Source of the DNA: an uncultured Eubacteriales bacterium
GTDB taxonomy: Bacteria; Bacillota; Clostridia; Christensenellales; CAG-138
Length of the DNA stretch: 35,340 bases
NCBI GenBank assembly: GCA_902765005.1
Contig: CACWYB010000015.1
Coordinates: 1 to 35,340, forward strand
Reading direction: 5' to 3'
Shown: positions 8,826 through 29,019 of the stretch, piece by piece
How positions within the stretch are numbered: the first letter of the stretch is position 1
How the letters are laid out: each line of letters opens with the position of its first letter
Translations under genes and position numbers: made by a program
The notes under the pieces: generated by a model
What the model saw: the letters and a program-made list of their open reading frames with translations, nothing else
Databases searched by the model: none
Told to the model about the DNA's origin: nothing

Positions 8826-8829
8826 CGAT

Positions 8830-8868
8830 AAAGGGCGGCGCCAAAAAATGGGCGGCCGCCCTTTTTTT
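8830..8868 (+). terminator. Rho-independent terminator after ychF
   Basis: A 10-bp stem (8830-8839 with 8855-8864) with a 15-nt loop merges into a T-run. It starts 4 nt after the ychF stop. Confidence 0.85.
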
Positions 8869-8878
8869 GACAGCCTGC

Positions 8879-8903
8879 AGCTCCCCTTGTTGGGGAGCTT
8901 TTT
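8879..8903 (+). terminator. Second tandem terminator
   Basis: An 8-bp perfect stem (AGCTCCCC 8879-8886 with GGGGAGCT 8892-8899) and a 5-nt loop are followed by TTTT. It lies 10 nt after the first terminator, giving a double stop at the end of the operon. Confidence 0.75.
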
Positions 8904-9278
8904 GCATGGGAAAAAAGGCGATGGAGGGGAGTTTTTGTTTAAGAACGTATAATAATAGCGAGAAATGCAAGATTATGCGTACATAGAATATGCACACTTT
9001 ATCCGAAACTTGTTTACAATTCCATAAAGTCCTGTTCAAATCCTGCTGTTACAATGCATATAGTGGTCAATTTGGGAAAGTATAAACATTCGGTTTTGGG
9101 TCCTATATTTAGTTTATGATCGGACGAGAGCCGCAAGATGCGGGCCGAAGCGTCTCTTGGAAACAGGGAAAACTGCAAAGAAACGGGAAATTTTAGCGAG
9201 CCAAACAAACCACGTTCCCCGGAGAAAAAAGAGCCGATCCGCGGTGCATGAACGGGGAAAATGCAAGGAGGGCCATGT
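8904..9278. other. Long non-coding upstream region, unassigned
   Basis: 375 nt without a gene, clearly more AT-rich than its surroundings up to about 9120. Possible promoters are weak: TTTACA 9013-9018 with TCAAAT 9036-9041, or TTCAAA 9035-9040 with TATAGT 9059-9064. From about 9120 to 9260 the sequence is purine-rich with a short hairpin (CCGCA/TGCGG, near 9132-9144). No known riboswitch class (c-di-GMP, c-di-AMP, T-box, TPP, cobalamin) could be matched by eye. It may be an untranslated leader of the downstream gene. Confidence 0.4.
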
Positions 9279-11182: not shown

Positions 11183-11245
11183 GTTTTCCACATATAATCC
11201 TCACAACCGGAGGGTATGATGGAGCCATGGAAAGGAGGCGGAGCC

Positions 11246-13225
11246 ATGGAAACGGGGAAGAGGATCCGACTGAACATCAAGGGCATGACCTGCGTGAATT
11301 GCAGCAACAAGATTGAGCGGGCCCTTGGCCGGTTGGAGGGCGTCCTGGAGGCAAAGGTCAGCTTCGAGCGGGGCACGGCGGACGTGAGATACGACGAGGA
11401 GATCACCTCGGCGGATCGGATCGTCGCCTGCATACAGGAAGCCGGATATCAGGTGGTGACGAAGGAGCAGGGGCGGTCGGAGGTGCTGAACATCATCTGC
11501 CTGATGCTCATCATCGTGCTCAGCTACATCCTGCTTCAGGGCACGGGGCTGCTGAACCTGCTGGCTCCCGGCCGGCTGGCGGACCCGGGCATGAGCTACG
11601 GCATGCTGTTCGTGATAGGGCTTGCCACCTCGATCCACTGCATCGCCATGTGCGGCGGCATCAACCTGTCGCAGTGTCTGCCCACCCAGGGGAAGAAGCG
11701 CGCCGCCATGGGGCCCTCTCTGCTCTACAATCTGGGCCGCGTCACCTCCTACACCGCCATGGGGCTGATACTGGGGACCGCGGGTTATCTGCTGGGAGGC
11801 GGCCGCGGGCTGTCCATCTCTCCGGTGTTCCAAGGGGCGTTGAAGATCCTGGCGGGCCTGTTCATGGTGTCCATGGGCGTCTCTGCCCTGGGTCTGTTTC
11901 CGGGGATAAAGAAGCTGAGTCTGCATTTACCCAAGGGCCTGGCCAGGACTTTGGGCAAGGCGGGCGCACGCTCCGGGCGACCCTTTGTGATTGGCTTTTT
12001 AAACGGCTTCATGCCTTGCGGGCCTTTGCAGTCCATGTGGCTGGTGGCCCTGGCCGCCGCATCTCCTCTTGAAGGCGCCCTGTCCATGCTGCTTTTCAGC
12101 CTGGGCACCGTGCCGCTGATGCTGGGGCTGGGCACCCTGGTCTTTGCCCTGGGAAAGCGATTCACCCAGACTGTTTCCATGGTCGGCGGCGTGCTGGTGG
12201 TGGTGCTGGGCCTGGCTATGCTTTCCCAGGGCGGGGCCCTCAGCGGCTGGCTGCCCCCCGACCTGCTGCTTGCCCTTATCATCGCGGCAGCCGTGGCGGG
12301 GGTGGCGCTCAGCATCCCCACGGAAAAGCACTGGGCCCGCCTGGCGCTGCGAGGGGTTGCCCTGGCGGCGGTGGCGGTGTCCCTGTTGTTCTGGGGCATG
12401 GGCGCCGGCGTGCAGGTGGCCGCGGCGGAAACGACGCCGACCGACACGCCCGCTGCCCAGGAGGAACAGGGGGTGCAGGAGGTGTACAGCGTTCTGAGAG
12501 CGTCCGCCTATCCGGACATCACCGTGCAGGTGGGGATTCCTGTGCGCTGGACCATCTCCGCGCCGGCGGGGAGCATCAACGGCTGTAACAACCGGATGAT
12601 CATTCGGGAGTACGGCATAGAATACACCTTCCACGAGGGGGACAATGTGATCGAGTTCACCCCCGCCAAGGTAGGGACCGTGCGCTACAGCTGCTGGATG
12701 GGCATGATCCATGCCAGCATCTTTGTGGTGGAAGCGGGGCAAGAGGCGCCGGCTCAAGCGGCTGCCGGCAGCGCACCCGTGCCGGCGGAATATTCCGTTC
12801 CCACGGACCAGATCGGCAAGGCCGTCCTGACCGGAAGCATCGACGGCAGCCGCATCCAGACCCTGACCACCACCCTCACGGCGGAGGGCTTTTCCCCGGC
12901 GGTGCTGGTGGTGCAGAAGGGGGTCACCCTCTACTGGGACATCGAGAACCAGGGGGAGGCTTTGGATCTTGTCGTGCCCAGCTTCTCCACCTCGGTGACC
13001 CTGGAGAAGGGAATGAATCGGCTGAGCGCTTACCCGTCGGAGAGCTTCGATGTGGCCACCGGCGACGGGCGGTTCTTTGCCTATGTGAAGGTGGTGGACG
13101 ATCTGTCCGCGGTGGACGAGGCGGCCCTTCGGGAGGAGGTCGGCGCCTTCTGTCCCATGATCTATCCCGAGGGTTCCTTTGATAGCGCCACCCGCACCTC
13201 CTGCTGCTGCAGAGGCGGATATTGA
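11246..13225 (+). CDS. HMA - SafE/UreH-type membrane - cupredoxin fusion (copper handling)
   Basis: 659 residues. An N-terminal heavy-metal-associated domain carries GMTCVNC (C16, C19). A six- to seven-helix membrane domain of the SafE/UreH/DsbD_2 type follows, with its paired motifs HCIAMCGGINLS and GFMPCGPLQS. Then come further helices and two extracytoplasmic cupredoxin-like segments. The first segment contains a Cys/Met/His set, SCWMGMIH. The C-terminus ends in a Cys cluster (SCCCRGGY). The start at 11246 is set by AAGGAGG at 11232-11238; ATGs at 11216 and 11219 lack such a site. A TATAAT lies at 11193-11198 and a partial CsoR-like half-site (AGGGTAT) at 11211-11217. The likely role is moving copper across or out of the membrane and holding it outside; the transport direction is unproven. 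First gene of the copper locus. Confidence 0.8.
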   Translation: METGKRIRLNIKGMTCVNCSNKIERALGRLEGVLEAKVSFERGTADVRYDEEITSADRIVACIQEAGYQVVTKEQGRSEVLNIICLMLIIVLSYILLQGTGLLNLLAPGRLADPGMSYGMLFVIGLATSIHCIAMCGGINLSQCLPTQGKKRAAMGPSLLYNLGRVTSYTAMGLILGTAGYLLGGGRGLSISPVFQGALKILAGLFMVSMGVSALGLFPGIKKLSLHLPKGLARTLGKAGARSGRPFVIGFLNGFMPCGPLQSMWLVALAAASPLEGALSMLLFSLGTVPLMLGLGTLVFALGKRFTQTVSMVGGVLVVVLGLAMLSQGGALSGWLPPDLLLALIIAAAVAGVALSIPTEKHWARLALRGVALAAVAVSLLFWGMGAGVQVAAAETTPTDTPAAQEEQGVQEVYSVLRASAYPDITVQVGIPVRWTISAPAGSINGCNNRMIIREYGIEYTFHEGDNVIEFTPAKVGTVRYSCWMGMIHASIFVVEAGQEAPAQAAAGSAPVPAEYSVPTDQIGKAVLTGSIDGSRIQTLTTTLTAEGFSPAVLVVQKGVTLYWDIENQGEALDLVVPSFSTSVTLEKGMNRLSAYPSESFDVATGDGRFFAYVKVVDDLSAVDEAALREEVGAFCPMIYPEGSFDSATRTSCCCRGGY

Positions 13226-15597: not shown

Positions 15598-15912
15598 ATG
15601 AGCGAAGCTGTGGCAAAAAACTGCTGCTGCGAAGAAAAATCGAAGGATCGCAGCCCGGAGGAATACAAGAAACTAATCCATCGGTTGAATCGAATTGAGG
15701 GGCAGGTGCGCGGCATTCGCAACATGGTGGAGCGTGGCGCCTACTGCACGGATATCCTGATGCAATCGGCGGCGGTCTCCGCGGCGGTCAACGCCTTCAA
15801 CAAGGAGCTGTTGGGCAACCATATCCGCACCTGCGTGGCCTCGGACATTCGAGACGGCAAGGACGAAGTGATCGACGAGCTGGTGGTTACCCTTCAAAAA
15901 CTGATGAAATAA
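15598..15912 (+). CDS. csoR: Copper-sensing transcriptional repressor CsoR
   Basis: 104 residues, helical DUF156 family. RLNRIEGQVRGIRNMV is the family signature. The Cu(I) triad is present: C50 in GAYCTDIL, H75 and C79 in NHIRTC, matching the Cys-His-Cys set of CsoR rather than the RcnR or FrmR ligand sets. The known role is to bind operators as a tetramer and release on Cu(I). An extra CCC (C9-C11) sits in the short N-terminal tail, which is unusual. Start set by AGGAGA at 15584-15589. It lies between the two-component genes and the transporter operon; its probable operators are listed separately. Confidence 0.93.
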   Translation: MSEAVAKNCCCEEKSKDRSPEEYKKLIHRLNRIEGQVRGIRNMVERGAYCTDILMQSAAVSAAVNAFNKELLGNHIRTCVASDIRDGKDEVIDELVVTLQKLMK

Positions 15913-15934
15913 CCCAGAACAATCCATATTTTTC

Positions 15935-15965
15935 CACCCATACCCTCTTTGGGTATGGGTGTTTC
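15935..15965 (+). terminator. csoR terminator hairpin containing a CsoR-like palindrome
   Basis: An 11-bp perfect stem (15935-15945 with 15951-15961) and a 5-nt loop are followed by TTTCT. The stem contains the 17-bp palindrome ATACCCTCTTTGGGTAT (15940-15956), which has the CsoR operator spacing. It may be both terminator and binding site, or the resemblance may be a by-product of the stem. Confidence 0.6.
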
Positions 15966-16177
15966 TATATACCCCCTAATTCGATTGCATTAAAATACAT
16001 ACCCAGATGGTAGGTTGATAAAACCGCTCTCCCGGATCCGCCGAAAAAAGAGGGCGATCCCAGCTGACGACAAAAAATTATAAGCTATTATTACCGGAAA
16101 ATCAGCGTTTTTGATTCTACAAGCTTTTTTGCCAGCTTGGCGCTCCTTCGACAAGTGAATTATAAATAAAACAGGAA
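15966..16177. other. AT-rich intergenic region, nothing definite
   Basis: 212 nt, less GC-rich than the genes around it. A half-site of the CsoR type (ATACCCCC, 15969-15976) sits near its left edge, and a partial ATACC/GGTAG pair with the wrong spacing at 15999-16013. A TTG-start reading frame on the minus strand (15990-16184) has no ribosome binding site and overlaps the transporter promoter. No gene or RNA could be supported. Confidence 0.4.
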
Positions 16178-16206
16178 TTGACAAATACCGGATGAGGGTA
16201 TATTAT
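16178..16206 (+). promoter_or_regulatory. Promoter of the peptide-transporter-like operon
   Basis: TTGACA at 16178-16183 (perfect) and TATTAT at 16201-16206 (5/6) with a 17-nt spacer. A CsoR-type palindrome fills the spacer from 16185 to 16201. The expected start is near 16213, giving a leader of about 168 nt. Confidence 0.8.
16185..16201. promoter_or_regulatory. CsoR-type operator 1 of the transporter operon
   Basis: ATACCGGATGAGGGTAT, 17 bp. It begins 2 nt after the -35 box and ends on the first base of the -10 box, exactly as at copA (25558-25574). Confidence 0.7.
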
Positions 16207-16217
16207 AATTATACAAG

Positions 16218-16234
16218 ATACGGTACACGGGTAT
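16218..16234. promoter_or_regulatory. CsoR-type operator 2 of the transporter operon
   Basis: ATACGGTACACGGGTAT, 17 bp, starts about 5 nt after the expected transcription start. A position just downstream of the -10 is also seen at the two-component promoter (13323-13339). Confidence 0.55.
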
Positions 16235-16380
16235 ATTCCATCAAGGCAACGCTTCTTTCCCCGGCTGCGGGCTCGTCTGCAAGGTTCGAATCACGGGCAA
16301 TATCGACGCCAATCGTCTTTTCATCGTGAGGTAAACGGCTTTTAAGTCGTTACAATAAAAAAAAGAAAGGAAGCAAAAGC

Positions 16381-18588
16381 ATGAAGAGGATCATAGCACT
16401 GGTACTGACAGTCATGATGCTGCTCAGTGTGGTCGCCTGCTCGGGCGGCACTGCCGCACCCGCCGCCACCAGCGAGGGCAGCGCAAGCAGCAGCACCACG
16501 ACCAACGCCGCAGACAGCAAACCCGCTGACTCTGCCGGAAACGAGGAGACCCCCAAAGCGGCCTTCACCGTCTCCGATGACGATGAAGAGATTTACATGA
16601 ACAACCTGGGCGAGTTCTACGAGTATTATCAGAACGCCGTCCAGACCTCCAAGAGCGATTCCGAGCGCTGGGCCAAGCTGGCCCTGGCCGAGGCCAAGTT
16701 CCTGGAGACCGGCTGCGGCACGCCCATGTATGCGCCCTTCGTATCCTACAGCCTGACCCGTCTTGTGTACAACACCTCCGGCTATGCCCCCTGGCGCGGC
16801 ACCATGACTCACTGGGGCGAGTACCTGATCACCAACGAGATCATCCTCAAAGAGGACTTTGATGCCCTCAAGGAGATCTGGAACGAGACCCGCGGCACCG
16901 GCACCTATCTGGATTCCGCCAAGAAATATCTCACCGACAAGGGTTACACCTTTGCCGATACCTATCGCGGCACCTTCACCGACATCATCAACTCCTGGAG
17001 CGTTTGGGAGATGTCCACCGGCGGCGCTGGTGCAGCTGTGACCTCCGCCGCTGACTTCCTCTTTGCCTATAACTCCGAGGGCACTTTGGTTCCCCACCTT
17101 GCGGAGAGCTATGAGATGTCCGAGGATGGCAAGGTCTACACCATCCATCTGAAGAAGGACCAGATCTGGGTCGACTCCCAGGGCCGCTACGTGGACGACG
17201 TGCAGGCTGACGACTGGGTGGCCTCCGCTCAGCACATGGCCGATATCCTGGGCTGGTACTTCAACCGCTTCACCCAGTATGTGGAGAACGCTGCCGAGTA
17301 TTACAACGGCGAGATCACCGATTTCGGCGAGGTAGGCATCAAGGCTCTCGACAAGTACACCCTGCAGTATACCCTTAAGGAGCCCTGCCCCTACTTCATG
17401 ACCCTGTCCGACAACCTGGCCTTCTACCCCCTGTGCCGGAGCTACTACCTGTCCCAGGGCGGCGCCTTCGGCCAGGCGGAGTATGCGGCGGCCGCTGCCT
17501 CCCCCAGCTACACCTACGGCATCGACCAGAACCACATCCCCTATTGCGGCCAGTTCATCTGCACCAACATGACGGAGAAAAACTCCATCACCTGCGTGCT
17601 GAACCCCAACTACTGGAATGCGGAGAATGCTACCCTGAAGGCCGTGGAGCTGGTCTATGACGACGGCTCCGATGTGGCCCGGAACTACGAGAACTTCAAG
17701 AACGGCCTCAACTACTCCATGTATCTGAATTCCGCGCTCATGGAGACCGCCAAGAACAATGGCGACTTCGACAAGTACGCCGTGACCAACCCGCCCAACA
17801 AGGCCACCTTCATGCTCTGGTTCAACCTGAACCGGAAGACCTATGCCAACGTGGCTGACGGCGCCCTGGCGTCCCGGAAGACCGATGAGCAGAAGGAGAT
17901 CACCCGGGCGGCGCTTCAGAACAAGCACTTCCGCCTGGCGCTGGCCTACTCCATCGACCGTCCTCTGTACATCGTGCAGAACACGGTGGAGGAGCTGAAG
18001 TACGCCAACAACCGGAACACCCTGACCCCCGGCGACTATGTGTCCCTGCTGGAGGACGTGACCATCGACATCAACGGCACGCCCACCACCTTCCCCAAAG
18101 GCACCTGGTACGGCGCCATCGTCCAGGCCCAGCTGACGGCGGATGAATTCCCCATCAAGGTGTGGGACGAAGAGCTGCAGACCACCGACTTCCCCGATGC
18201 CTGGCATCAGCCGGAGCTGGCCAAGAAGGAGATGGAGCTGGCCATCGAAGAGCTGGCGACCCTGGGCTACAAGGTGTCCAAGGAGAACCCCATCGTTCTG
18301 GATTATTACAATCCCGTCATCGATGAAACCAGCGCCCGCATGTCCTATGTGCTCAAGACCTGCATCGAGTCCGGCACGGACGGCAACGTCTTTGTGGACC
18401 TGATCGACATGAATGCCTGGAGCGAGCGGAACAACATGCTCAACAACGTGAACTATGGCTACGAGGTCAATGAGGATATGGGCGGCCTTGGCACCGTCGG
18501 TTCCGATCATGGTGATCCCCAGTGCTTCACCGAAGGCCTGCTGCCCTATGGCGACGGCTATATGGTGATCCGGATGGGTCTCTGGTAA
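16381..18588 (+). CDS. Peptide-type ABC transporter substrate-binding lipoprotein
   Basis: 735 residues. The signal peptide ends in a lipobox LLSVVAC (lipidated C20), followed by a low-complexity Ser/Thr/Ala linker (about 21-55). The body has family 5 (SBP_bac_5, Opp/Dpp/Nik/Ami) features: LVPHLAESYEMSEDGKVYTI, YTLQYTLKEPCPYF, and ALAYSIDRPLYI. It is long for the family, because of the linker and an N-terminal region (about 70-200) that precedes the usual first motif, as in AmiA-type proteins. AAAGGAAG just upstream sets the start. First gene of a six-gene operon with a CsoR-type promoter. Ligand unknown: peptide, thiol compound or metal chelate are all possible. Confidence 0.88.
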   Translation: MKRIIALVLTVMMLLSVVACSGGTAAPAATSEGSASSSTTTNAADSKPADSAGNEETPKAAFTVSDDDEEIYMNNLGEFYEYYQNAVQTSKSDSERWAKLALAEAKFLETGCGTPMYAPFVSYSLTRLVYNTSGYAPWRGTMTHWGEYLITNEIILKEDFDALKEIWNETRGTGTYLDSAKKYLTDKGYTFADTYRGTFTDIINSWSVWEMSTGGAGAAVTSAADFLFAYNSEGTLVPHLAESYEMSEDGKVYTIHLKKDQIWVDSQGRYVDDVQADDWVASAQHMADILGWYFNRFTQYVENAAEYYNGEITDFGEVGIKALDKYTLQYTLKEPCPYFMTLSDNLAFYPLCRSYYLSQGGAFGQAEYAAAAASPSYTYGIDQNHIPYCGQFICTNMTEKNSITCVLNPNYWNAENATLKAVELVYDDGSDVARNYENFKNGLNYSMYLNSALMETAKNNGDFDKYAVTNPPNKATFMLWFNLNRKTYANVADGALASRKTDEQKEITRAALQNKHFRLALAYSIDRPLYIVQNTVEELKYANNRNTLTPGDYVSLLEDVTIDINGTPTTFPKGTWYGAIVQAQLTADEFPIKVWDEELQTTDFPDAWHQPELAKKEMELAIEELATLGYKVSKENPIVLDYYNPVIDETSARMSYVLKTCIESGTDGNVFVDLIDMNAWSERNNMLNNVNYGYEVNEDMGGLGTVGSDHGDPQCFTEGLLPYGDGYMVIRMGLW

Positions 18589-18621
18589 GAAAAGCGTGTA
18601 GAGCGCGTCACATGAAATCAC

Positions 18622-18649
18622 GGAGTGGAGGGATTTTTCCCTCCACTCC
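18622..18649 (+). promoter_or_regulatory. Intercistronic hairpin after the substrate-binding gene
   Basis: A perfect 12-bp stem (18622-18633 with 18638-18649) with a TTTT loop and no T-tract after it. Such hairpins between a binding-protein gene and its permease usually stabilise the upstream mRNA and limit readthrough, so that the binding protein is made in excess (known for mal and opp systems; inferred here). Confidence 0.6.
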
Positions 18650-18684
18650 CCTTAGGACCAAAGCCGGGAAGAGGGCTCCAACCC

Positions 18685-20256
18685 ATGTTAAAATACTTTT
18701 TTAAGCGATTGTTTCGTGGCTTGCTCTCCGTGATCGTGGCCGTCGTCGCCATCATGATCCTTTTGTTCGTGGTGATGGACAAAATGACGATTTTCCAGGA
18801 GGACGAGCAATATCAACGATTGCTCAACAATCAAAAGATTATTTATCGCTATACCATGTGGGAAAAGTACAGCTACTTGGACTACGTGACCTATAACGAT
18901 TATTTGAATGAGCTGGTCCGCGATGGCGAGCTGGAGGAATCCTTTAAGGAATCCATCGCCAAGATCGGCAAGACCGCCGCCCAGGATAAGCCCGACGTGG
19001 CGGAATATGTGGCCAAGTTCACCGAATACTATGAATCCAAGGGATACGAGGTCATCCGCCTGGATGCGGTCATGGCGACCCCCGTGCGGGTGGCCTCCGG
19101 CGGCCAGCAGCATCTTTTTGCAGCGCAGAACACGCCCGTCCTGATCCGGGTGGCCAAGTTCTTCGGAGGCTTGCTCCATTTTGATTCCATCCACTATGCG
19201 GATGGCGACATCGAGGATCGGGGCCTTTCCTTCACCTTACACGATCCGGTCTATGGGGGCGAAAAGTTTTCCCCCGCCATCATCGGCAACGGAACCTATC
19301 ACAAGTATCTGCTCTATTTTGACAGATATTTCCCCTATATCCATCAGAACTTCACCTGGATCACCCTGGGCCAGTCCTACACGGTCAACAAGGGCGTGGA
19401 GGTGCTCAAGACCATGGGGCAGCGTCAGGGCGCCTATATCACGTCCACGACCTATTACCCCACGGGCCTCGTTGCGGAAGGCGCGGAGGACCTGCATTCC
19501 GCCACCTACGCCAAGGGCACCCGGGAGACCACCAACGTGAACATGAGGCTCTACAGCGACGACTATACCAGCGTGGACCTGGTGAAGACCAGCGGGTCCA
19601 AGGTGTTCTACTCCTTCGTGGTCAGCATCTTCGGCTCCATCTTCTCCTACCTGCTGGGGCTGCCGCTGGGCGTGCTCCTGGCGAAGAACAAGGACACCTG
19701 GATCGATCAGCTGGGCAGCGCCTACAACGTGTTCATGATCGCGGTGCCGTCCCTGTCCTACTACTTCATGATCAAGGCGCTGGGCAGCAAGCTGGGCTTG
19801 CCCACCTCCTTCTCTCTGGACAATCCATCGGTGCTCATGTATCTTATGCCCGTGGTCACCATCGTGCTGGCGGGCATCGCGGGCCAGATGAAGTGGATGC
19901 GCCGCTACATGGTGGACCAGATGAACTCCGACTACGTGAAGTTCGCCCGGGCGGAGGGCCTCTCCGAGCGGGAGATCTTTTCCAAATACATCTTTAAGAA
20001 CGCCGCCATCCCCATCGTCCATGGCATTCCCGGCATGTTCGTGGGCGCCATCAGCGGCTCCATCATCATGGAGCGGGTATACATCATCCCCGGCGTGGGC
20101 GGCCTGTTCCTCCAGTCCATCAGCTCCTATGATAACGGTGTCATCGTGGGCCTGGCCGTGTTCTATGGCCTGCTGTCCATCCTGTCCACCATCCTGGGCG
20201 ACATCCTGATGGCCATCATGGATCCGAGAATTTCCTACACATCCAAGGCGAGGTGA
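18685..20256 (+). CDS. Opp/Ami-type ABC permease with large extracytoplasmic insert
   Basis: 523 residues. TM1 (about 9-31) is followed by an insertion of about 275 residues (31-305) before TM2 (about 306-333), then four more helices. The EAA-type coupling loop is KFARAEGLSEREIFSKYIFKNA, followed by PIVHGIPGMFVGAISGSIIMERVYIIPGVGGL. A typical DppB/OppB has about 310-340 residues; the long insert is known from AmiC/OppB of streptococci. The start at 18685 is used because an ATG at 18625 would cover the upstream hairpin and lacks a site. TGA stop at 20254-20256. Confidence 0.88.
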   Translation: MLKYFFKRLFRGLLSVIVAVVAIMILLFVVMDKMTIFQEDEQYQRLLNNQKIIYRYTMWEKYSYLDYVTYNDYLNELVRDGELEESFKESIAKIGKTAAQDKPDVAEYVAKFTEYYESKGYEVIRLDAVMATPVRVASGGQQHLFAAQNTPVLIRVAKFFGGLLHFDSIHYADGDIEDRGLSFTLHDPVYGGEKFSPAIIGNGTYHKYLLYFDRYFPYIHQNFTWITLGQSYTVNKGVEVLKTMGQRQGAYITSTTYYPTGLVAEGAEDLHSATYAKGTRETTNVNMRLYSDDYTSVDLVKTSGSKVFYSFVVSIFGSIFSYLLGLPLGVLLAKNKDTWIDQLGSAYNVFMIAVPSLSYYFMIKALGSKLGLPTSFSLDNPSVLMYLMPVVTIVLAGIAGQMKWMRRYMVDQMNSDYVKFARAEGLSEREIFSKYIFKNAAIPIVHGIPGMFVGAISGSIIMERVYIIPGVGGLFLQSISSYDNGVIVGLAVFYGLLSILSTILGDILMAIMDPRISYTSKAR

Positions 20257-20261
20257 GAAGC

Positions 20262-21251
20262 ATGGGCAATGATACGGATAAATTGATCGACCTGACCGAT
20301 ACGGGCCTACCCGATGAGGAGCTGTTCACCCAGATCCCCCAGGACATGAGCTCTGTGGAGAAGATCGTGGCCCCCAAGTATTCCTATTGGCATTCGGTGT
20401 TCCGGGTGTTCTTCTCCAAGAAATCCAACATCGTCATCATCGCTCTGCTGGTGATGGTGCTGGCCTTCGCCTACATCTATCCCGTCTTCCATCCCTACGA
20501 CAAATTCGAAAACATTCTGGATACCACCGCCAAGCATCTGACCCCTATGCAGGCCATGAAGCGCTTTGGGTTCAGCATCCGCTGGCTCTTCGGCACCGGC
20601 GAATCGGGCCAGTCCACCTTTGACGCCATCTGGTATGGCTCCCGCATCTCCATGTCCCTGGCCATCATCTGCACGCTGATCAACTTCTCCATCGGCCTGG
20701 TGGTGGGCGCCCTGTGGGGCTTCTCCAAGAAGGTGGACATGGTGATGAATGAGATCCGCAACGTGGTCTGGATCATCCCCGGCACCTTCGTCACCTCGGT
20801 GCTCATCATGATCTTCAGCCCCAGCTTCTGGACGCTGATCTTCGCCATCTGCATCACAGGCTGGCTGGGCGTGGCCTATTCCCTTCGTACGCAGGTCATC
20901 ATCATCCGGGATAGGGAGTACAACCTGGCCTCCAAGTGCCTGGGCTCCTCCACGGTGCGCATCGCCACCCGGAACATACTGCCCTACATGATTTCCTATA
21001 TCGTCACCGTCATGGCCACCTCCATCCCCGCCTACATCGGCATGGAGGCAGGGCTAAGCTATATCGGCCTGGGCATAGCGGACACCACCCTGGGCAAGAT
21101 CGTCAATAACGCATCCAGCGCCATGATGGTGCCTGGCTGGGGGTGGGAGTTCTGGTGCCCGGTCATGTTCTCCGCCTTCCTGTCCATCGTTCTGTTCCTG
21201 GTGGGCCAGAGCCTGGGCGACGCGGCCGACCCCAGGACCCATATGCTATAA
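20262..21251 (+). CDS. Opp/Ami-type ABC permease, second subunit
   Basis: 329 residues, OppC/DppC/AmiD family. A cytoplasmic N-terminal tail (about 1-50) precedes TM1 (VIIALLVMVLAFAYIYPVF). A BPD_transp_1 domain contains SRISMSLAIICTLINFSIGLVVGALWG, and the coupling loop YNLASKCLGSSTVRIATRNILPYM is followed by AGLSYIGLGI. The ATG at 20262 with GAGGTGA at 20250-20256 is preferred over an in-frame GTG at 20253 that overlaps the upstream stop. Confidence 0.9.
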   Translation: MGNDTDKLIDLTDTGLPDEELFTQIPQDMSSVEKIVAPKYSYWHSVFRVFFSKKSNIVIIALLVMVLAFAYIYPVFHPYDKFENILDTTAKHLTPMQAMKRFGFSIRWLFGTGESGQSTFDAIWYGSRISMSLAIICTLINFSIGLVVGALWGFSKKVDMVMNEIRNVVWIIPGTFVTSVLIMIFSPSFWTLIFAICITGWLGVAYSLRTQVIIIRDREYNLASKCLGSSTVRIATRNILPYMISYIVTVMATSIPAYIGMEAGLSYIGLGIADTTLGKIVNNASSAMMVPGWGWEFWCPVMFSAFLSIVLFLVGQSLGDAADPRTHML

Positions 21252-21264
21252 GGAGGGAGAGAGC

Positions 21265-23013
21265 ATGGTAGAGAAGAAAGTGCTTTTATCCGTCCGGAAC
21301 CTGAACGTGAAATTCCGGGTCCGCGGCCGTGTTTTGACCGCCATCCGCAACGTGTCCCTGGACATCTTTGAGAACGAAACCATTGCCATCGTGGGGGAGT
21401 CGGGCTGCGGAAAGTCCGTGTTCACCAAGACCTTCGCGGGCATGCTGGACAACAACGGCTTTATCGACCAGGGGGATATTATCTTTTTCGACGATTCCCT
21501 GACGGACGAGCATGCGCCCCTTACCCCCGTTTCCCGGCAGTTTATCGCCCGGGAGGCCCGGAAGCTGAACCAGTACGCCCAGCGGGAACTGGGAGCCCCC
21601 ATCTATCGGCAGATGCTGGCCCTGCAGCAGGAGCGCAAGGAGAAAATGGGCCTTAGCCCTCAAGAGGAGGCCCAATTCGCCGCCCGCCGCCGGGAGCTGC
21701 GGTTCGAGCACAGCGAGACAAACAACCTGAAGCTGACCTTGGACGCCAACAAGGACCGGGAAGCCTATAAAGCCGCAAGCCAGAAGCTGGAAGCCCTTGA
21801 AAAGCAGCTCAAGGCCCTGGAGCAGGAACAGAAGGACCTGGCGGCCAGAAATCGCCGCGCCACACGGCAGGACACCGCCTACAACCGGGACTATGCCGCG
21901 CGGATGGCGGAGCTGAAGGCAGCCTATACGAAGGCCTGCGCCGGGCAGGTCACCCAGCAGACGAGGGTGCGGAACGAGCGCCTGGCGCGGGAGGTGTATC
22001 TCTCCGTGGCCCGGTATCCTGCCCGCCGCCAGCCCAAGCTCACCTGTCAGCTGAACAAAGCCCTGCGCACGGCCATGCAGCTGGGGGTTGACCTTTCCAA
22101 CGAAACGGAGCTGAACCATGTCTTCGAAACGGCGGTGTTCCGGGTGAAGTATCTGGAGGAGAGCGAGGACCAGCTCCACGGCGTTTCCTACCTGAACCTG
22201 GCCAAGACCCATTGCGTGGTGGATTGGACCCACATCCGGGGCAACAAGATCGCCACCATCTTCCAGGATCCCATGACCAGCCTGAACCCGATCCTGACCA
22301 TCGGGCATCAGATCACCTCCGTGATCATCAAGCATCAGCATGTGTCCGAAACGGAGGCGCGCAAGCGGGCCATCATCCTCATGAAGAAGGTGGGCATCCC
22401 CAACGCGGAAAACCGATTCGACGATTACCCCTTCCAGTATTCCGGCGGCATGCGGCAGCGCATCGTTATCGCCATCGCCCTGTCCTGCCAGCCGAAGATC
22501 CTCATTTGTGACGAGCCGACCACGGCGCTGGACGTGACCATCCAGGCCCAGATCCTGCAGCTGATCAAGGATTTGCAGAAGGAGTTCGGGTACACCATCG
22601 TGTTCATCACCCACGATTTGGGCGTGGTGGCCAACGTGGCGGACCGAGTGGCGGTGCTCTATGCGGGCCAGATCGTGGAGGTGGGCACGGTGGAAGAGGC
22701 GTTCTATGATCCCCGCCACCCCTACACTTGGGTTTTGCTGTCCTCCTTGCCCCAGCTGAGCGAGCGGGACACGGAGCTCTTCTCCATTGCGGGCACACCT
22801 CCTTCCTTGTATAACAAGATCCACGGCGACGCGTTTGCCCCCCGCAATCCCTACTGCCTCAAGGTGGACACCCTGCGGGAGCCCCCCATGTTTCAGGTGT
22901 CCGAGACCCACTTTGCCAAGACCTGGCTGCTGGACCCCCGGGCCCCCAAGGTGGAGAAGCCGGCCATCATTCGGGATGTGCACGGCACGCTGAAGAAAGT
23001 ATTCAATATCTGA
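21265..23013 (+). CDS. OppD/AmiE-type ABC ATPase with a long coiled-coil insert
   Basis: 582 residues against about 330-360 for the family. Walker A is GESGCGKS (44-51), the Q-loop is [11 protein letters not shown] (Q334), the signature SGGMRQ (393-398), Walker B ILICDEPT, and the H-loop H450. Between Walker A and the Q-loop there are about 280 residues instead of about 50. The insert is charged and helical, including a coiled-coil stretch (about 165-195) rich in Lys, Glu, Gln and Leu. The C-terminal region ([29 protein letters not shown] region) resembles the Ami/Opp type and lacks the Cys cluster found in many DppD proteins. AAGGAGGGAG at 21250-21259 sets the start. Confidence 0.88.
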
Positions 23014-23023
23014 GGAACGGCCG

Positions 23024-24334
23024 ATGATGAGCAAAGAGAAGCAAACCACGGCTCTTACGGAAAGGGCAAATCACTTTCCGGAGCACGGGCCCATAGCAGA
23101 GAACGGGAAGGAGATCCTTCTTTCCGTAAAGGATGTGGACATCAACTTCGGCAAGGGCGAAAACATCGTCAGAGCCGCCAGGGGCGTATCCTTCGACATC
23201 TACAAGGGGGAGACCTTCTCCTTGGTGGGAGAGTCGGGTTCCGGCAAGACCACCGTTGGCCGCGCCGTGATCCGGGCCAACACCTGCTCCAAAGGCGCCA
23301 TCTACTATAAGGGCGTGCGCATCTCGGGCAGGATTCCCCATTCCCTGGACCGTGAGGTCATTCGAAACATTCAGATGGTGTTCCAGGACCCGGCGGCCTC
23401 GCTGAACGAGCGAGCCACCGTGGATCAGATCATCTCCGAGGGCCTCAACAACTTCCATCTGTACAAGAACGAAGCGGACCGGGTCCGCAAGGTGGAAAAG
23501 ATCGTGGAGGACGTGGGCCTGCTGCCGGAGCATCTCACCCGGTACCCCCATGAGTTTTCCGGCGGTCAGCGCCAGCGCGTGGGCCTGGCTCGGGCCATGG
23601 TCATGGAGCCGGAGCTGGTCATCGCCGACGAGCCCATCTCCGCTCTGGACGTGTCCATCCGCGCGCAGATCCTGAACCTGATCAATAAGTTCAAGCGGGA
23701 GCGGAACACCACCTGCCTGTTCATCGCCCACGACCTGTCCATCGTGCGCTACATTTCCGACCGTATCGGCGTCATCTACAAGGGGCGGATCATGGAGATC
23801 GCCTCCTCCGAGGAGCTGTTCAGCTATCCGCTCCATCCCTACACCCGGTCGCTGATCTCCGCTATCCCTCTGCCCGACCCCAGGCTGGAGCGGAACAAGG
23901 TGCTCTTCACCTATGAGAAATCCCCCAACGAGGAGGACGATGCCCAGCGCCGTCTGGTCATGATCGGCCATGACCACTATGTGTACGGCAACGAGCAGGA
24001 GATCGAGGAATACAAAGCGGTTCGGGAGAAAAATGTGCCTCTGAAGACCCTGCTCATCCGGGGCGAGAACACGGATGTGAGCCAGGAGGCGGCGGTGGAT
24101 ACCACGCCCCATGAGGTGATATTGGATCGACCCATTCACGATACGGGCAGTCCCTGGCTGGTTTTGCTGTCCTTCCTGCTGCCCATCGTGGGGTTCCCCC
24201 TGGCGCACATCTTCCGCAAACGCAACTATATCCGCAACTTTAAGGCGTGTCGGAAGGGGGCCATCGCCGGGGTCAGCTGCCTCGGATTGCTGGTGTTGTT
24301 CTTCATCTTCCTGATCCTTATCACGCTCAGATGA
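23024..24334 (+). CDS. OppF/AmiF-type ABC ATPase with C-terminal membrane segments
   Basis: 436 residues. Walker A GESGSGKT (69-76), Q-loop Q121 in MVFQDPAASLN, signature SGGQRQ (179-184), Walker B LVIADEP, H-loop H236. The ATPase proper ends near 300. A tail of about 135 residues follows, with two predicted TM helices (about 377-396 and 411-434) near the C-terminus separated by a basic loop. Membrane segments on an OppF-type ATPase are unusual. The frame is continuous with no sign of an assembly error. The stop overlaps the next start by ATGA (24331-24334). The start could also be the next ATG at 23027. Confidence 0.87.
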   Translation: MMSKEKQTTALTERANHFPEHGPIAENGKEILLSVKDVDINFGKGENIVRAARGVSFDIYKGETFSLVGESGSGKTTVGRAVIRANTCSKGAIYYKGVRISGRIPHSLDREVIRNIQMVFQDPAASLNERATVDQIISEGLNNFHLYKNEADRVRKVEKIVEDVGLLPEHLTRYPHEFSGGQRQRVGLARAMVMEPELVIADEPISALDVSIRAQILNLINKFKRERNTTCLFIAHDLSIVRYISDRIGVIYKGRIMEIASSEELFSYPLHPYTRSLISAIPLPDPRLERNKVLFTYEKSPNEEDDAQRRLVMIGHDHYVYGNEQEIEEYKAVREKNVPLKTLLIRGENTDVSQEAAVDTTPHEVILDRPIHDTGSPWLVLLSFLLPIVGFPLAHIFRKRNYIRNFKACRKGAIAGVSCLGLLVLFFIFLILITLR

Positions 24335-25506
24335 AGCTGCCCTGGAACAAGGGCCGAGAGGCCTCACAGGAGGAGATCGTCATACCGGAGGGGAGGATAC
24401 TCCTGCGGGTCATCCTGCTGATCGTGTGCGTGGCGATCACCGTACTCTCCCTGGCCTACGGCCTGCGCACCTGGCTGACGGCGGAGGGAGGCGTGCAGAA
24501 GATCATCCCTGTGAACGACCGGCAGCTGAGCAGTTGCGAAGACTTCACCTTCGTCTACGATCTGGGGGCGGGAGAAGCATCGGCTACCGTGGAAAAGAAA
24601 GCCCTGCGCGCGCTGTATACACAAGCGGGGCGGGAGGCTTATGAGATCTTTTCGGCGGAATGCGAATCCGATGACTGCAAGGGCCTTTGGTATCTGAACG
24701 GGCATATCAACGAGCCGGTGACGGTGGAGAAGGCCCTGTATCAGGCCCTGGAGCTGGTGCAGCAAAGCGGCAGCCGATACGCCTATCTGGCGCCCATCCA
24801 GGAAGGATACGACGCCCTGTTCGCCTGGGGGGATGCCCGGGAGGCGGCGGAGATGGACCCCGGCGAAAATGAGGCGCTCCGCGCGTTCTATGCCGCGGCG
24901 GCGGCCTTCGCCCGGGATCCGGGCAAGATCGATCTTGTTCTGTTGGGAAAGGATACCGTTTGCCTGTCGGTATCGGAGGACTATATGGCCTTTGCCCGGG
25001 AGAACGATATCCACCGATGGATAGACTTTGGCTGGATGAAGAACGCTTTCACCGCAGACTATCTGGCAGAGAGCCTGGGCGCTGCGGGGTACACCCGGGG
25101 CACGCTGATCAGCAGCGACGGATTCATCCGGCATTTGGACGATCGGGAGGGAAAGGAGTTCACCTTCCTTCTGCCCTTTTCCCGTGGGGGCGTGGAGGAG
25201 CTGCGCTTTGATCGGCCGGTGAGCCTTGTGTACCTGCATGATTACCCTGTGGAGCCGGACAATGGCCGGTATTGGACGGCGGGGGACGGGCGCGTCATCA
25301 CCGGGTATCTGGACGTGGCCGACGGCCTGTGTCGCAGCGCCGTGCCCGAGATGCTGGCCGGTTCCGCGACCCGGGGCTGCGCGCAGATCGCCCTGCAGGT
25401 CGCTCCGCTGTTCATTGCGGGCAGCCTGGACGCTTCGGCGGCGGCGCTTCTTGCGAGCCGGGAGGACATACAGATCTGGACTGCGCAAACGGTCAACGGA
25501 GAGTAA
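24331..25506 (+). CDS. Membrane-anchored, divergent ApbE-like protein
   Basis: 391 residues: a cytoplasmic N-terminus, one TM helix (about 22-44), then an extracytoplasmic domain. By eye the domain follows the ApbE (FAD:protein FMN transferase) layout. There is an early helix pair, then YAYLAPIQEGYDALF at the place of the FD-T-PL motif, then IDFGWMKNAFTADYLAESL in place of the DLG-KG-A-D helix, then TLISSDGFIRHL in place of NLGG. A late segment APLFIAGSLDASAAALL is in place of the DA-ATA helix. Several residues of the flavin/Mg site are changed, so it may be inactive or have another substrate. It overlaps the ATPase gene by 4 nt and ends the transporter operon. The family call is tentative. 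Confidence 0.5.
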   Translation: MKLPWNKGREASQEEIVIPEGRILLRVILLIVCVAITVLSLAYGLRTWLTAEGGVQKIIPVNDRQLSSCEDFTFVYDLGAGEASATVEKKALRALYTQAGREAYEIFSAECESDDCKGLWYLNGHINEPVTVEKALYQALELVQQSGSRYAYLAPIQEGYDALFAWGDAREAAEMDPGENEALRAFYAAAAAFARDPGKIDLVLLGKDTVCLSVSEDYMAFARENDIHRWIDFGWMKNAFTADYLAESLGAAGYTRGTLISSDGFIRHLDDREGKEFTFLLPFSRGGVEELRFDRPVSLVYLHDYPVEPDNGRYWTAGDGRVITGYLDVADGLCRSAVPEMLAGSATRGCAQIALQVAPLFIAGSLDASAAALLASREDIQIWTAQTVNGE

Positions 25507-25550
25507 GGGGCCTGCGAGAAAAATGATGCATTATTTTCTTCAAAAAGGTA

Positions 25551-25579
25551 TTGAAATATACCGGTAGGGGGTATATAAT
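25551..25579 (+). promoter_or_regulatory. copA promoter
   Basis: TTGAAA at 25551-25556 and a perfect TATAAT at 25574-25579 with a 17-nt spacer. The spacer carries a CsoR-type operator. Confidence 0.85.
25558..25574. promoter_or_regulatory. CsoR-type operator at copA
   Basis: ATACCGGTAGGGGGTAT, 17 bp, has the same length and arms as the known Bacillus copZA operator (ATACCCTACGGGGGTAT). It starts 2 nt after the -35 and ends on the first base of the -10. Confidence 0.8.
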
Positions 25580-25665
25580 GCAGACAGTAATGCAGGAAAT
25601 GTTCAAAAAGGGCTAAGCCTGCGAAAAAAGTATACGACGATGGATCGTCGGGTATGGGAGGTAGT

Positions 25666-28431
25666 ATGAAGCAGTACAACGTAACGGGCATGAGCTGCGC
25701 GGCCTGCAGCGCCCGGGTGGAGAAGGCTGTGAACAAGGTGCCGGGAGTCACCTCCTGTTCCGTGAGCTTGCTGACCAATTCCATGGGCGTGGAAGGCACC
25801 GCGGCACCCCAGGACATCATCAAGGCAGTGGAAGGGGCAGGCTATGGCTGCTCCGAGAAGGGCGCCTCCAAGAGCAATTCCCAGAGCGCGGCCAACGCGG
25901 CGGCAGAGGATGCCCTGAAGGACCGGGAGACCCCCATCCTGAAGAAGCGCCTGCTGCTGTCCGTGGGCTTCCTGCTGGTGCTCATGTATTTCTCCATGGG
26001 CCATATGATGTGGGGATGGCCTTTGCCCGCCTGGTTCAACGGCAACCATGTGGCCATGGGCCTGGTGCAGATGATCCTGGCGGCCATCGTCATGATCATC
26101 AACAAGAAGTTCTTTGTAAACGGTTTCAGCAGCCTGTTTAAGGGCGCGCCCAACATGGATACTCTGGTGGCCCTGGGCTCCGGCGTTTCCTATGCGTACA
26201 GCGTGGTCGCCCTCTTCCTTATGTCCGACGCCGTGGTCAAGGGCAACCATGAGCAGGTCATGTACTACATGGACAACTTCTATTTTGAAGCGGCGGCCAT
26301 GATCCTGACCCTCATCACCGTGGGCAAGATGCTGGAGGCCCGGTCCAAAGGCAAGACCACCGACGCCCTCAAGAACCTCATGAAGCTGGCCCCCAAGACC
26401 GCCGTGGTCCTGCGGGACGGCCAGGAGGTGGAGGTTTCCATCGAAGACGTGCAGAAGGGCGACATCTTTGTGGTCCGCCCCGGCGAGAACATCCCCGTGG
26501 ACGGCATCGTGCTGGAGGGCCACAGCGCCGTGAACGAATCCGCCCTCACAGGCGAGAGCATCCCGGTGGATAAGGCGGAGGGAGATGTGGTCTCCGCCGC
26601 CACGCTGAACCAGTCCGGCTTCATCAAGTGCCAGGCCACCCGGGTAGGCGAGGACACCACCCTGAGCCAGATCATCCAGATGGTCAGCGACGCGGCCGCC
26701 ACCAAGGCGCCCATCGCCAAGGTGGCCGACAAGGTCTCCGGCGTGTTCGTGCCCGTGGTCATCAGCATCGCCGTGGTGGTCACCATCATCTGGCTGATCC
26801 TGGGCCGGCCCTTCGGCTTCGCCCTGGCCCGCGGCATCTCCGTGCTGGTCATCAGCTGCCCCTGCGCCTTGGGCCTGGCCACCCCCGTGGCCATTATGGT
26901 GGGCAACGGCAAGGGCGCCAAGAACGGCGTGCTCTTTAAGAATGCTGTCTCCCTGGAGGAGACCGGCAAGGTGGATATCGTGGCGCTGGACAAGACCGGC
27001 ACCATCACCACCGGCGAGCCCAAGGTCACCGACATCGTGCCCGCTGCGGGCGTGAGCGGCAAGGATCTGCTTACTTTGGCCTATGCCCTGGAGAAGAAGA
27101 GCGAGCATCCTCTGGCCCGGGCCATCCTGCAGAAGGCGGAAGAGGATAAGCTGACGGCGGACGAGGTGAGCGATTTCACCGCCCTGCCCGGCAACGGCCT
27201 CACCGCCACCTGGAAGGGCCAAAAGCTTTCCGGCGGCAACTATAAGTTTATCAGCACCCAGTGCCCCGTCCCCGAGGCGGTGAAAAAGGATTCCGAGCGG
27301 CTGGCCGAGCAGGGCAAGACCCCCCTGTTCTTTGCCCAGGGCGATACGCTGATGGGTATCGTGGCCGTGGCGGACGTGATGAAGGAAGACAGCGCCCAGG
27401 CCGTGAAGGAAATGCAGAACATGGGCATCAAGGTGGTCATGCTCACCGGCGACAACGAGCGGACCGCCAAGGCCATCGGCGACCAGGCCGGTGTGGACCA
27501 GGTCATCGCCGGCGTGCTGCCCGACGGCAAGGAAAGCGTCATCCGGGAGCTGAAGAAGCAGGGCAAGGTGGCCATGGTGGGCGACGGCATCAACGACGCC
27601 CCGGCCCTCACCCGTGCGGACATGGGTATCGCCATCGGCGCGGGCACGGATGTGGCCATCGACGCCGCGGACGTGGTGCTCATGAAGAGCCGTTTGCTGG
27701 ACGTGCCGGCAGCCATCCGCCTGAGCCGTGCCACCCTGCGGAACATTCACGAAAATCTGTTCTGGGCATTCTTCTACAACTGCATCTGCATTCCTCTGGC
27801 GGCGGGTGCCTTCGTCCATTGGGGCATCACGCTGAATCCCATGATCGGCGCGGCGGCCATGAGCCTTTCCAGCTTCTGCGTGGTGACCAACGCCCTGCGT
27901 CTGAACCTGTTTGATATGCACAATGCCAGCCGGGATAAGAAAAAGAAGCACGCCGTGAAGGAGCTGGCCCCTCAGAAGAAGAACATCGAAAAGACCATGC
28001 AGATCACGGGCCTCATGTGCGGCCACTGCGAGGCCACGGTGAAGAAGGCCCTGGAAGCCATCCCCGGTGTGGAGGAGGCCAATGCCAACCATGAAACCGG
28101 CATCGCCCGCCTGGTTTTGAGCGCGGACGTTCCCAACGAGCAGCTGAAGAAGGCTGTGGAGGCCGTAGGGTATGTGGTGGACGCCGTGCTGGAGGGCCGT
28201 CAGGAGCCCCAGGTGAAGACCGTGGAAAAGATCGCCACCGTGGAGGGCCTCATGTGCGGCCATTGCGAAGCCACGGTGAAGAAGGCCCTGGAAGCCATCC
28301 CCGGCGTGAAGGAGGCCACGGCCGACCATGAGACCGGGAAGGTCAAAATCGCACTGACCGGCGACGTGGCCGAGGAGGATATGAAGAAGGCCATTGAGAC
28401 CGTAGGCTATGTGTGGAAGGGCGTCGAATAA
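25666..28431 (+). CDS. copA: Copper-exporting P1B-type ATPase with three HMA domains
   Basis: 921 residues. An N-terminal HMA carries GMSCAAC (C11, C14). Then come the TM core, the actuator loop with LTGES, the metal-site CPC (398-400) in [12 protein letters not shown], phosphorylation site D442 in [20 protein letters not shown], and the hinge [20 protein letters not shown]. After the last TM pair come two more HMA domains in tandem, each with [20 protein letters not shown] (C785/C788 and C864/C867). C-terminal HMA pairs are uncommon, and they make the protein longer than a typical CopA. The start at 25666 uses GGGAGGT at 25656-25662. Role: Cu(I) export from the cytoplasm, fed by the CopZ proteins downstream. 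Confidence 0.95.
28008..28317 (+). repeat. Tandem duplicated HMA-coding segments inside copA
   Basis: The segments starting at 28008 and 28245 (237 nt apart, 79 codons) share near-identical DNA over about 70 nt around the CGHC motif, with only a few changes. This points to a fairly recent internal duplication or gene conversion. Confidence 0.75.
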
Positions 28432-28473
28432 GGCGATCCCTAAAGATAATTCATTTGAAAGGAAGCGAAATGT

Positions 28474-28686
28474 ATGAAGACGATCAAGATGAAGGTAGAC
28501 GGGATGCATTGCGGCGGCTGCTCTGGCCGGCTTAAGAGGACGCTGGAGGCCCTGCCCCAGGTGGAGAGCTGCGAAGCGAACCACGAGACCAAGGATGTGG
28601 TGGTGACCCTGAAGGAGGAGCTCTCCGTGGAAGCCATCACCAAGGTGTTGGCCGACGGCGGCTTCACCGTGCTTAGTGTTGACTAA
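28474..28686 (+). CDS. copZ: CopZ-like copper chaperone, copy 1
   Basis: 70 residues: a single HMA domain with GMHCGGC (C13, C16). It is a soluble cytoplasmic Cu(I) carrier for CopA. The fold pattern beta-alpha-beta-beta-alpha-beta is recognisable. AAAGGAAG at 28458-28464 precedes the start. It sits 42 nt after copA with no promoter seen, so it is probably cotranscribed with it. The TAA stop overlaps the first base of the operator of the next gene. Confidence 0.93.
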   Translation: MKTIKMKVDGMHCGGCSGRLKRTLEALPQVESCEANHETKDVVVTLKEELSVEAITKVLADGGFTVLSVD

Positions 28687-28708
28687 TACCGGAGTTTCGG
28701 TATATCAT
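28679..28708 (+). promoter_or_regulatory. Promoter of the second copZ
   Basis: TTGACT at 28679-28684 and TATCAT at 28703-28708 with an 18-nt spacer. It overlaps the 3' end of copZ copy 1. Confidence 0.65.
28686..28703. promoter_or_regulatory. CsoR-type operator at the second copZ
   Basis: ATACCGGAGTTTCGGTAT, 18 bp with arms ATACCG/CGGTAT. As at copA and the transporter operon it begins 2 nt after the -35 and ends on the first base of the -10. The extra base in the site matches the extra base in the promoter spacer. Confidence 0.65.
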
Positions 28709-28735
28709 GTAAGCATCAGAAAGGAGTATAGGATC

Positions 28736-28948
28736 ATGAAGACTCTCAAAATGAAGGTTGACGGTATGCATTGCGGCGGCTGCTCCGGCCGGCTCAAGAG
28801 GACGTTGGAGGCCCTGCCCCAGGTGGAGAGCTGCGAAGCGAACCACGAGACCAAGGACGTGGTGGTCACCCTGAAGGAGGAGCTCTCCCTGGAAGCCATC
28901 ACCAAGGTATTGGCTGACGGCGGCTTCACCGTGCTCAGCGCGGAGTAA
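28736..28948 (+). CDS. copZ: CopZ-like copper chaperone, copy 2
   Basis: 70 residues, 66 identical to copy 1 (differences I4L, one V to L, and the last two residues), with the same GMHCGGC motif. AAGGAG at 28721-28726 sets the start; an upstream in-frame ATG at 28676 would run through the operator. It has its own promoter with a CsoR-type operator. Tandem duplication of the chaperone suggests dosage selection for Cu(I) buffering. Confidence 0.93.
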   Translation: MKTLKMKVDGMHCGGCSGRLKRTLEALPQVESCEANHETKDVVVTLKEELSLEAITKVLADGGFTVLSAE

Positions 28949-28964
28949 ACCCACACATCTTTGG

Positions 28965-28995
28965 CAGGAGAGGTCCTCAAGGCCTCTCCTGTTTT
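28965..28995 (+). terminator. Terminator of the copA-copZ-copZ unit
   Basis: A 9-bp stem (CAGGAGAGG 28965-28973 with CCTCTCCTG 28983-28991) is followed by TTTT. Confidence 0.75.
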
Positions 28996-29019
28996 ACAGG
29001 CGGAGCAGAAGGAGGCAAT

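Follow-up and report, generated by a model that had tools for sequence, protein, structure and literature searches.

Bacterial copper resistance is usually described in terms of export, chaperones and storage, and the repressor CsoR derepresses its targets under copper excess. Among the closest described systems to the locus reported here are the csoR-copA-copZ operons of Firmicutes, on one side, and the oligopeptide importers of the Ami/Ali type, on the other. In the latter, according to excerpts of PMC11192437, AmiA and AliB hold the N-terminal amine of the peptide by an Asp (D507/D503), packing it on a Trp (W504/W500), and the authors consider recognition of the first three peptide residues a possible hallmark of the Ami system. 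Here we analyze a stretch of 35,340 bases (the window), which is the entire contig CACWYB010000015.1 of an uncultured Eubacteriales bacterium of the Clostridia (genome of 2.38 Mb, 2,376,722 bases, 77% complete), where an Ami/Opp-type ATP-binding cassette (ABC) importer operon would be controlled together with copper export. In the open-licence PMC literature, from the titles and abstract starts among the matches listed, apparently no paper describes an oligopeptide transporter controlled by copper or CsoR, or an ApbE protein with one.

The operon, oppABCDF followed by an ApbE-like gene (16381-25506), sits between a Cu-type csoR and copA. All recognised genes from 15598 to 30318 are on the + strand: csoR, oppABCDF, the ApbE-like gene, copA, two HMA genes and an L-cysteine desulfidase-like gene. 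An earlier reading of this DNA, made from the letters alone (the sequence-only reading), had placed here an Ami/Opp-like operon of a lipoprotein, two permeases, two ATPases and an ApbE-like protein, and gene calls and Pfam agree with it: the products are an SBP_bac_5 lipoprotein, two BPD_transp_1 permeases and two ABC ATPases with oligo_HPY, as in Ami/Opp importers. A nickel/opine importer (Cnt or Nik, for staphylopine or Ni opine) was rejected, with CntA at 22.5 of 800 bits and NikA at 36.7 of 393 (NCBIfam cut-offs). The features concerning regulation and transport are the following.

15598-15912, + strand: csoR, Cu-type CsoR (Cys50-His75-Cys79; C-x24-H-x3-C spacing; Pfam Trns_repr_metal 2.3e-29)
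15940-15956, no strand assigned: operator-like palindrome ATACCCTCTTTGGGTAT within the probable csoR terminator hairpin
16178-16206, + strand: predicted opp promoter, TTGACA-17-TATTAT
16185-16201, no strand assigned: CsoR-type operator 1, ATACCGGATGAGGGTAT, in the opp promoter spacer (-35/-10)
16218-16234, no strand assigned: CsoR-type operator 2, ATACGGTACACGGGTAT, a weaker match, 33 bp 3' of operator 1
16381-18588, + strand: oppA (SBP_bac_5), Ami-type substrate-binding lipoprotein, circularly permuted with respect to AmiA, with altered ligand motif
18685-20256, + strand: oppB, permease with a large insert (the open reading frame opens at 18625)
20253-21251, + strand: oppC, permease
21265-23013, + strand: oppD, ATPase with an insert of ~200 aa (NF043079, 701 bits, under the cut-off of 740)
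23024-24334, + strand: oppF, ATPase with a C-terminal two-segment hydrophobic hairpin (by eye)
24331-25506, + strand: ApbE-like protein with an N-terminal hydrophobic segment (by eye), predicted inactive
25551-25579, + strand: predicted copA promoter, with CsoR-type operator ATACCGGTAGGGGGTAT at 25558-25574, in the same spacer position
25666-28431 (start approximate), + strand: copA, Cu P-type ATPase with three HMA domains

The OppF hairpin is absent from the shorter OppF of operons of the L029 type.

The regulator belongs to the DUF156 family (Pfam PF02583, 2.3e-29) and reaches no NCBIfam cut-off, the best being RicR with 62.7 of 175 bits. Its residues C50, H75 and C79 are kept in 10/10 aligned CsoRs, and their spacing agrees with that of the Cu(I) site of M. 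tuberculosis CsoR, C36-H61-C65 (spacing 25 and 4). Concerning its putative targets, the sequence-only reading had pointed to a near-consensus opp promoter with one CsoR-type operator in its spacer and another just past the start, and both sites were confirmed (16185-16201 and 16218-16234, the second weaker). TTGACA followed by a spacer operator is also present in the csoR or copA promoters of other family loci (L075, L076, L077, L078, L079, L088, L089 and L091), and in the csoR promoters of L079, L088, L089 and L091 a second operator follows 34-37 bp downstream, a layout that the opp promoter of the window shares, with its weaker second site at 33 bp.

These sites are rare. The pattern ATACYNNNNNNGGGTAT occurs at 4 places in the 2,376,722 bases of the genome, and 3 of them are in the locus (15940, 16185 and 25558); the fourth, C3:60538, precedes a gene resembling an XRE-type regulator (by eye), and inspection by eye of the 3-kb stretch there showed no recognisable copper gene. 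The reversed pattern, used as a control, has 0 matches in this genome and 25 strand matches across 26 genomes, that is 0.43 per Mb in ~58.7 Mb (sizes rounded), and by chance an upstream region of 330 bp would be expected to hold ~1e-4 operator matches. In 18 genomes with an opp operon of the family lacking a copper link, no place matching the pattern was found at the operon, and places on the contig of oppA were at least 19 kb from it; in G004 and G009 the pattern falls in the csoR-copA locus itself. These two congeners carry a non-copper-type opp-apbE on the csoR-copA contig (G004:C17 and G009:C12), with oppA 32 and 27 kb from csoR.

We compared the operon with 26 other opp loci of the family, several of them truncated, from 24 genomes of the order and class. 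They were drawn as 12/12, 9/17 and 5/7 of three match sets, with family OppA matches below 180 bits left out and L124 and L125 standing outside the set; contig ends cut the operon in L026, L032, L033, L090, L122 and L123, and flanks are short in L024, L083 and L085. In the stretches covered, csoR, copA and strict operator matches were all absent. Six looser operator patterns gave one site each in 3/26 loci: inside oppB in L025, far from apbE in L026, and 1.4 kb upstream of oppA in L122, without a -35 hexamer in place. None lies in a recognisable opp promoter, and these sites are taken as chance matches. An ApbE-like gene was detected in 18/26 loci; four of the remainder are cut by or near contig ends, and in L085, L087, L119 and L120 no such gene was found at E 1e-4.

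A scan of a GTDB-based contig collection, which may omit records of the window's own genome, returned 9 candidate stretches, of which 1 was confirmed. This second instance, L005 (JAFSEB010000046.1, Clostridia bacterium RGIG3058, goat rectum), comes from another genus, and its OppA is 56% identical to that of the window. Its gene order is different (lipoprotein, oppABCDF, apbE, csoR, copA), and TTGACA-operator promoters precede the lipoprotein (8309), opp (~9574) and csoR (~19304); in its genome, G031, ATACYNNNNNNGGGTAT occurs at 6 places, 5 of them within the copper-opp locus. Compared with its congener L078, L005 shows 88% identity up to 8089 (ilvB, by eye, with a T-box leader) and 90% from 19296 (the csoR promoter onward), and it holds 11.2 kb where L078 holds 0.3 kb. 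Similarly, the csoR-copA interval measures 9.75 kb in the window and 0.11 kb in the congener L075. As judged from these alignments, the cassette occupies two different points of one copper locus in two genera, two cases from which gain and loss are indistinguishable. The copA tree follows the genera, grouping L005 with L078 and placing the window among its congeners; in the trees of the Opp subunits, by contrast, window and L005 are sisters (support 0.998-1.000). A chimeric assembly is unlikely, because the copA end of the locus matches congeners L075 and L077 (78-83% DNA identity in long blocks) and a second, separately assembled genome has the same operon. The expectation that the csoR-opp-ApbE-copA arrangement would be conserved in relatives thus stood in part: it recurs in a second genus, with another gene order, but it was found in two genomes only and the congeners examined lack the cassette.

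OppA matches were found in 23/103 genomes of the family at E 1e-30, and only G000 and G031 exceeded 1500 bits, the next reaching 438; csoR was matched in 32/103 at E 1e-10. At E 1e-100, OppA was found in 13/396 genomes of the order, 5/391 of the class and 2/398 of the phylum (the window's genome counted each time), figures that may miss members as the best 2 candidates per genome were scored.

One explanation of these data is that a general Opp cassette landed twice in a copper locus by hitch-hiking, with no functional copper link. The rarity of such an OppA (2/103 family genomes) and the 26 other family loci, not copper-linked in the stretches covered, would agree with it. However, the operators lie in the opp promoter spacer in both genera, which is hard to reconcile with hitch-hiking; moreover the linkage is kept despite the different gene order, and both copper-linked OppAs have changes in common. 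We consider this explanation very unlikely. Given the spacer operator, the rarity of the motif, the recurrence in a second genus and the lack of strict matches in the 26 other loci, the proposal of the sequence-only reading that the transporter is part of a copper regulon is well supported at the level of sequence: the opp operon very probably belongs to the CsoR regulon and would be released together with copA when cytosolic Cu(I) rises.

L005 has further elements of its own. The first gene of its cassette (8383-9108) encodes a Trp/Cys-rich lipoprotein with YYCW repeats, preceded by its own CsoR-type promoter; it has no Pfam match, and a search of the other 102 family genomes at E 1e-5 gave no homologue. 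On the minus strand (9600-9837) an extra CsoR-type promoter (9837) faces the opp promoter, with no evident gene; the 213 nt downstream of it fold strongly (z -4.3), in part via the palindromic second operator, and the element is possibly a small RNA. The T-box leader in L005 was the sole Rfam match at gathering thresholds.

Concerning what is transported, we built an OppA profile from 23 sequences (the two copper-linked and 21 others). It matches AmiA, AliC, AliB and AliD at 1.7e-120 or better (AmiA 3.4e-132), with a circular permutation: profile positions 186-716 correspond to AmiA chain 14-499, and positions 64-167, near the N-terminus, to 518-625, near the C-terminus. The ligand motif of the family, GWGPDYGDPST, becomes G(T/A)(V/I)GSDHGDPQC in both copper-linked OppAs. 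Asp709 is kept in 23/23 sequences; at the Trp706 equivalent, 21/21 non-copper-linked OppAs have W, whereas the copper-linked two have V/I and so lack the Asp and Trp pair of an N-terminus site. Flanking the kept Asp, Tyr/Phe is replaced by His710 and Thr/Ser by Cys715, and the domain-I loop facing the peptide is altered too. In total, 11 Cys/Met/His are common to both proteins and absent from the 21 others (M73, M116, M142, H239, C394, M397, M447, C661, H710, C715 and M732). The stem branch of the pair is also longest for OppA (0.60, against 0.23 for OppB, 0.35 for OppC, 0.17 for OppD, 0.18 for OppF and 0.32 for the ApbE-like protein). We read the ligand-site and stem changes as a change of substrate. 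The sequence-only reading had suggested, as candidate roles, uptake of thiol or peptide ligands that buffer copper, handling of a copper chelate, or a metallophore, and the altered residues of the OppA site would agree with a changed substrate. The protein would remain of the Ami-type family with its ligand site rebuilt in the copper-linked lineage, so that it probably does not bind ordinary peptides through their free N-terminus.

The same residues could indicate that OppA binds a copper-bearing ligand, such as a Cu-peptide, a Cu-thiolate or a chalkophore-like chelator, so that the system would recycle a secreted chelator or trap copper at the surface when it is in excess. This possibility would fit the His710 and Cys715 next to the ligand Asp, the further clade-specific Met and Cys, and the Trp/Cys-rich lipoprotein of L005 under its own CsoR-type promoter. 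On the other hand, it would be paradoxical to import copper at the very time when CsoR reports an excess of it, the 20 Pfam-scanned window proteins (a subset of the open reading frames) included none for chelator biosynthesis, and AlphaFold models from two-sequence alignments were not usable (mean predicted local distance difference test score of 31.0 for OppA and 32.1 for the ApbE-like protein). We therefore hold a copper-bearing ligand to be rather doubtful. A metallophore serving plain copper acquisition would go against the direction of the regulation, given that CsoR lifts its repression when copper is in excess, and is therefore disfavoured.

For an importer that excess copper turns on, the best explanation is the uptake of something protective. 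Copper damages Fe-S dehydratases such as IlvD and LeuC, and an ordinary peptide importer under CsoR could supply amino acids when these enzymes are inactivated. An ilv/leu gene run (by eye) with the Rfam T-box leader does adjoin the L005 cassette; however, in L078 ilvB and csoR are neighbours in the same way although opp is absent, so that this adjacency is independent of the cassette. Since, in addition, OppA has lost the Trp that recognises the peptide N-terminus and no ilv gene was present among the 20 scanned window proteins, we judge amino-acid supply unlikely.

The other candidate is a small sulfur ligand (a glutathione-like thiol, cysteine or a Cys-containing peptide), which, once imported, would buffer cytosolic Cu(I). 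According to excerpts of PMC7733945, Streptococcus pyogenes imports glutathione, which buffers excess Cu, and under Cu it was glutathione only that helped, not Cys alone, gamma-Glu-Cys, Cys-Gly or an amino-acid mixture. These results favour a glutathione-like ligand over plain cysteine. The ligand could also feed an enzyme encoded after copA, where the genes are as follows.

28474-28686 and 28736-28948, + strand: two HMA-domain proteins, CopZ/MerP-like (Pfam)
29020-30318, + strand: L-cysteine desulfidase-like protein (Pfam SDH_alpha), 3' of copA

The last product matches solved L-cysteine desulfidases (9he0 1.3e-24, 9fsl 4.5e-24), and a homologue follows copA in three congeners, L075, L076 (split into two open reading frames) and L077. 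Copper-linked sulfide production by this protein is possible, and sulfide could precipitate copper; in the open-licence PMC literature, among the matches listed, nothing joining copper and cysteine desulfidase concerned copper resistance. Uptake of a sulfur ligand that buffers Cu(I), maybe feeding the desulfidase-like enzyme, is our tentative proposal for the substrate.

The sixth gene of the operon shows its ApbE-like domain only in profile comparisons. Its product alone has no Pfam match at E up to 1; 8/16 aligned family members match PF02424 (best 3.4e-6), and the family profile matches the solved ApbE/Ftp structures 1vrm (1.8e-5) and 4xdt (3.6e-5), which bears out at the profile level the ApbE-like identity proposed for it. 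The Mg-binding Asp and Thr of the ApbE motif ADALATA align with Gln352 and Gln356, and among the 16 aligned proteins Asp occupies the first place in 6/16 and Thr the second in 0/16. Because of these replacements, flavin transfer by the 24331-25506 protein is unlikely. It may instead be an inactive, membrane-anchored extracytoplasmic accessory subunit.

Taken together, we propose that a Cu(I) rise in the cytosol would load CsoR and release the opp and copA promoters at once, that an importer with a rebuilt OppA site would bring in a sulfur ligand, and that an inactive ApbE-like subunit would assist it. To this reading as a whole we assign a probability of roughly 0.45. Several observations weigh against it. 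Only two instances were found across all searches, and csoR and copA occur without the cassette in three congeners of the window and one of L005. The desulfidase-like gene adjoins copA also in genomes without a copper-linked opp, and the S. pyogenes results argue against a supply of plain cysteine. The clade-specific enrichment of Cys/Met/His is modest (11/60 versus 34/420 in 80 other, non-independent pairs; binomial 0.008, Fisher 0.015), and this class of residues was picked with copper in mind after the list was seen. An earlier Fisher p of 4e-6 and a plain-composition test of 2e-4 were discarded, since a rare residue is more likely to be missing from other sequences anyway. When the subunits are controlled on composition, OppA gives 11/63 (3.5e-4), OppB 3/43, OppC 4/29 (0.13), OppF 1/13 and the ApbE-like protein 0/8, and OppD also deviates slightly (4/17, p 0.014); the L119/L120 pair gives 5/64. 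Finally, the OppC stem exceeds the OppA stem relative to its own tips. The broader idea of a mobile copper-stress cassette, in which a permuted Ami-type importer under CsoR control would have turned its peptide site into one coordinating Cu(I) or a thiol and, with a pseudo-ApbE accessory subunit, would act as a dedicated effector of copper resistance, seems to us less likely than not.

Upstream of csoR, 11216-13225 encodes a protein with HMA, DsbD_2 and weak cupredoxin-like (E 0.027) parts, beside a two-component system; it is possibly copper-related too.

If the proposal is true, uptake of an external ligand would be a regulated arm of copper defence, and the locus would offer a way into the question of what anaerobes buffer Cu(I) with. 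Occupied and empty sites, paired in each of two genera, and the changed ligand motif lay the proposal open to direct test.

The component families are each known. The operon resembles the Ami/Ali permease of Streptococcus pneumoniae (AmiACDEF, AliA-D) in having a lipoprotein, two permeases and two ATPases and in keeping the ligand Asp, but its OppA is permuted and without the N-terminus Trp, and it has a CsoR-type promoter and an ApbE-like sixth gene. The latter is similar at the profile level to ApbE, FAD:protein FMN transferase (1vrm, 4xdt), but with Gln352 and Gln356 at the presumed Mg-ligand places. GshT of Streptococcus is alike in the copper protection proposed to come from import of an external thiol; however, it is reported to work with the cystine importer TcyBC, which is not Opp-type, and the excerpts of PMC7733945 mention no CsoR control. 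With the csoR-copA-copZ operons of Firmicutes the locus has in common a Cu-type CsoR, an HMA P-type ATPase, HMA chaperones and the spacer operator, and to these it adds an ABC importer and an ApbE-like protein under the same predicted regulation.

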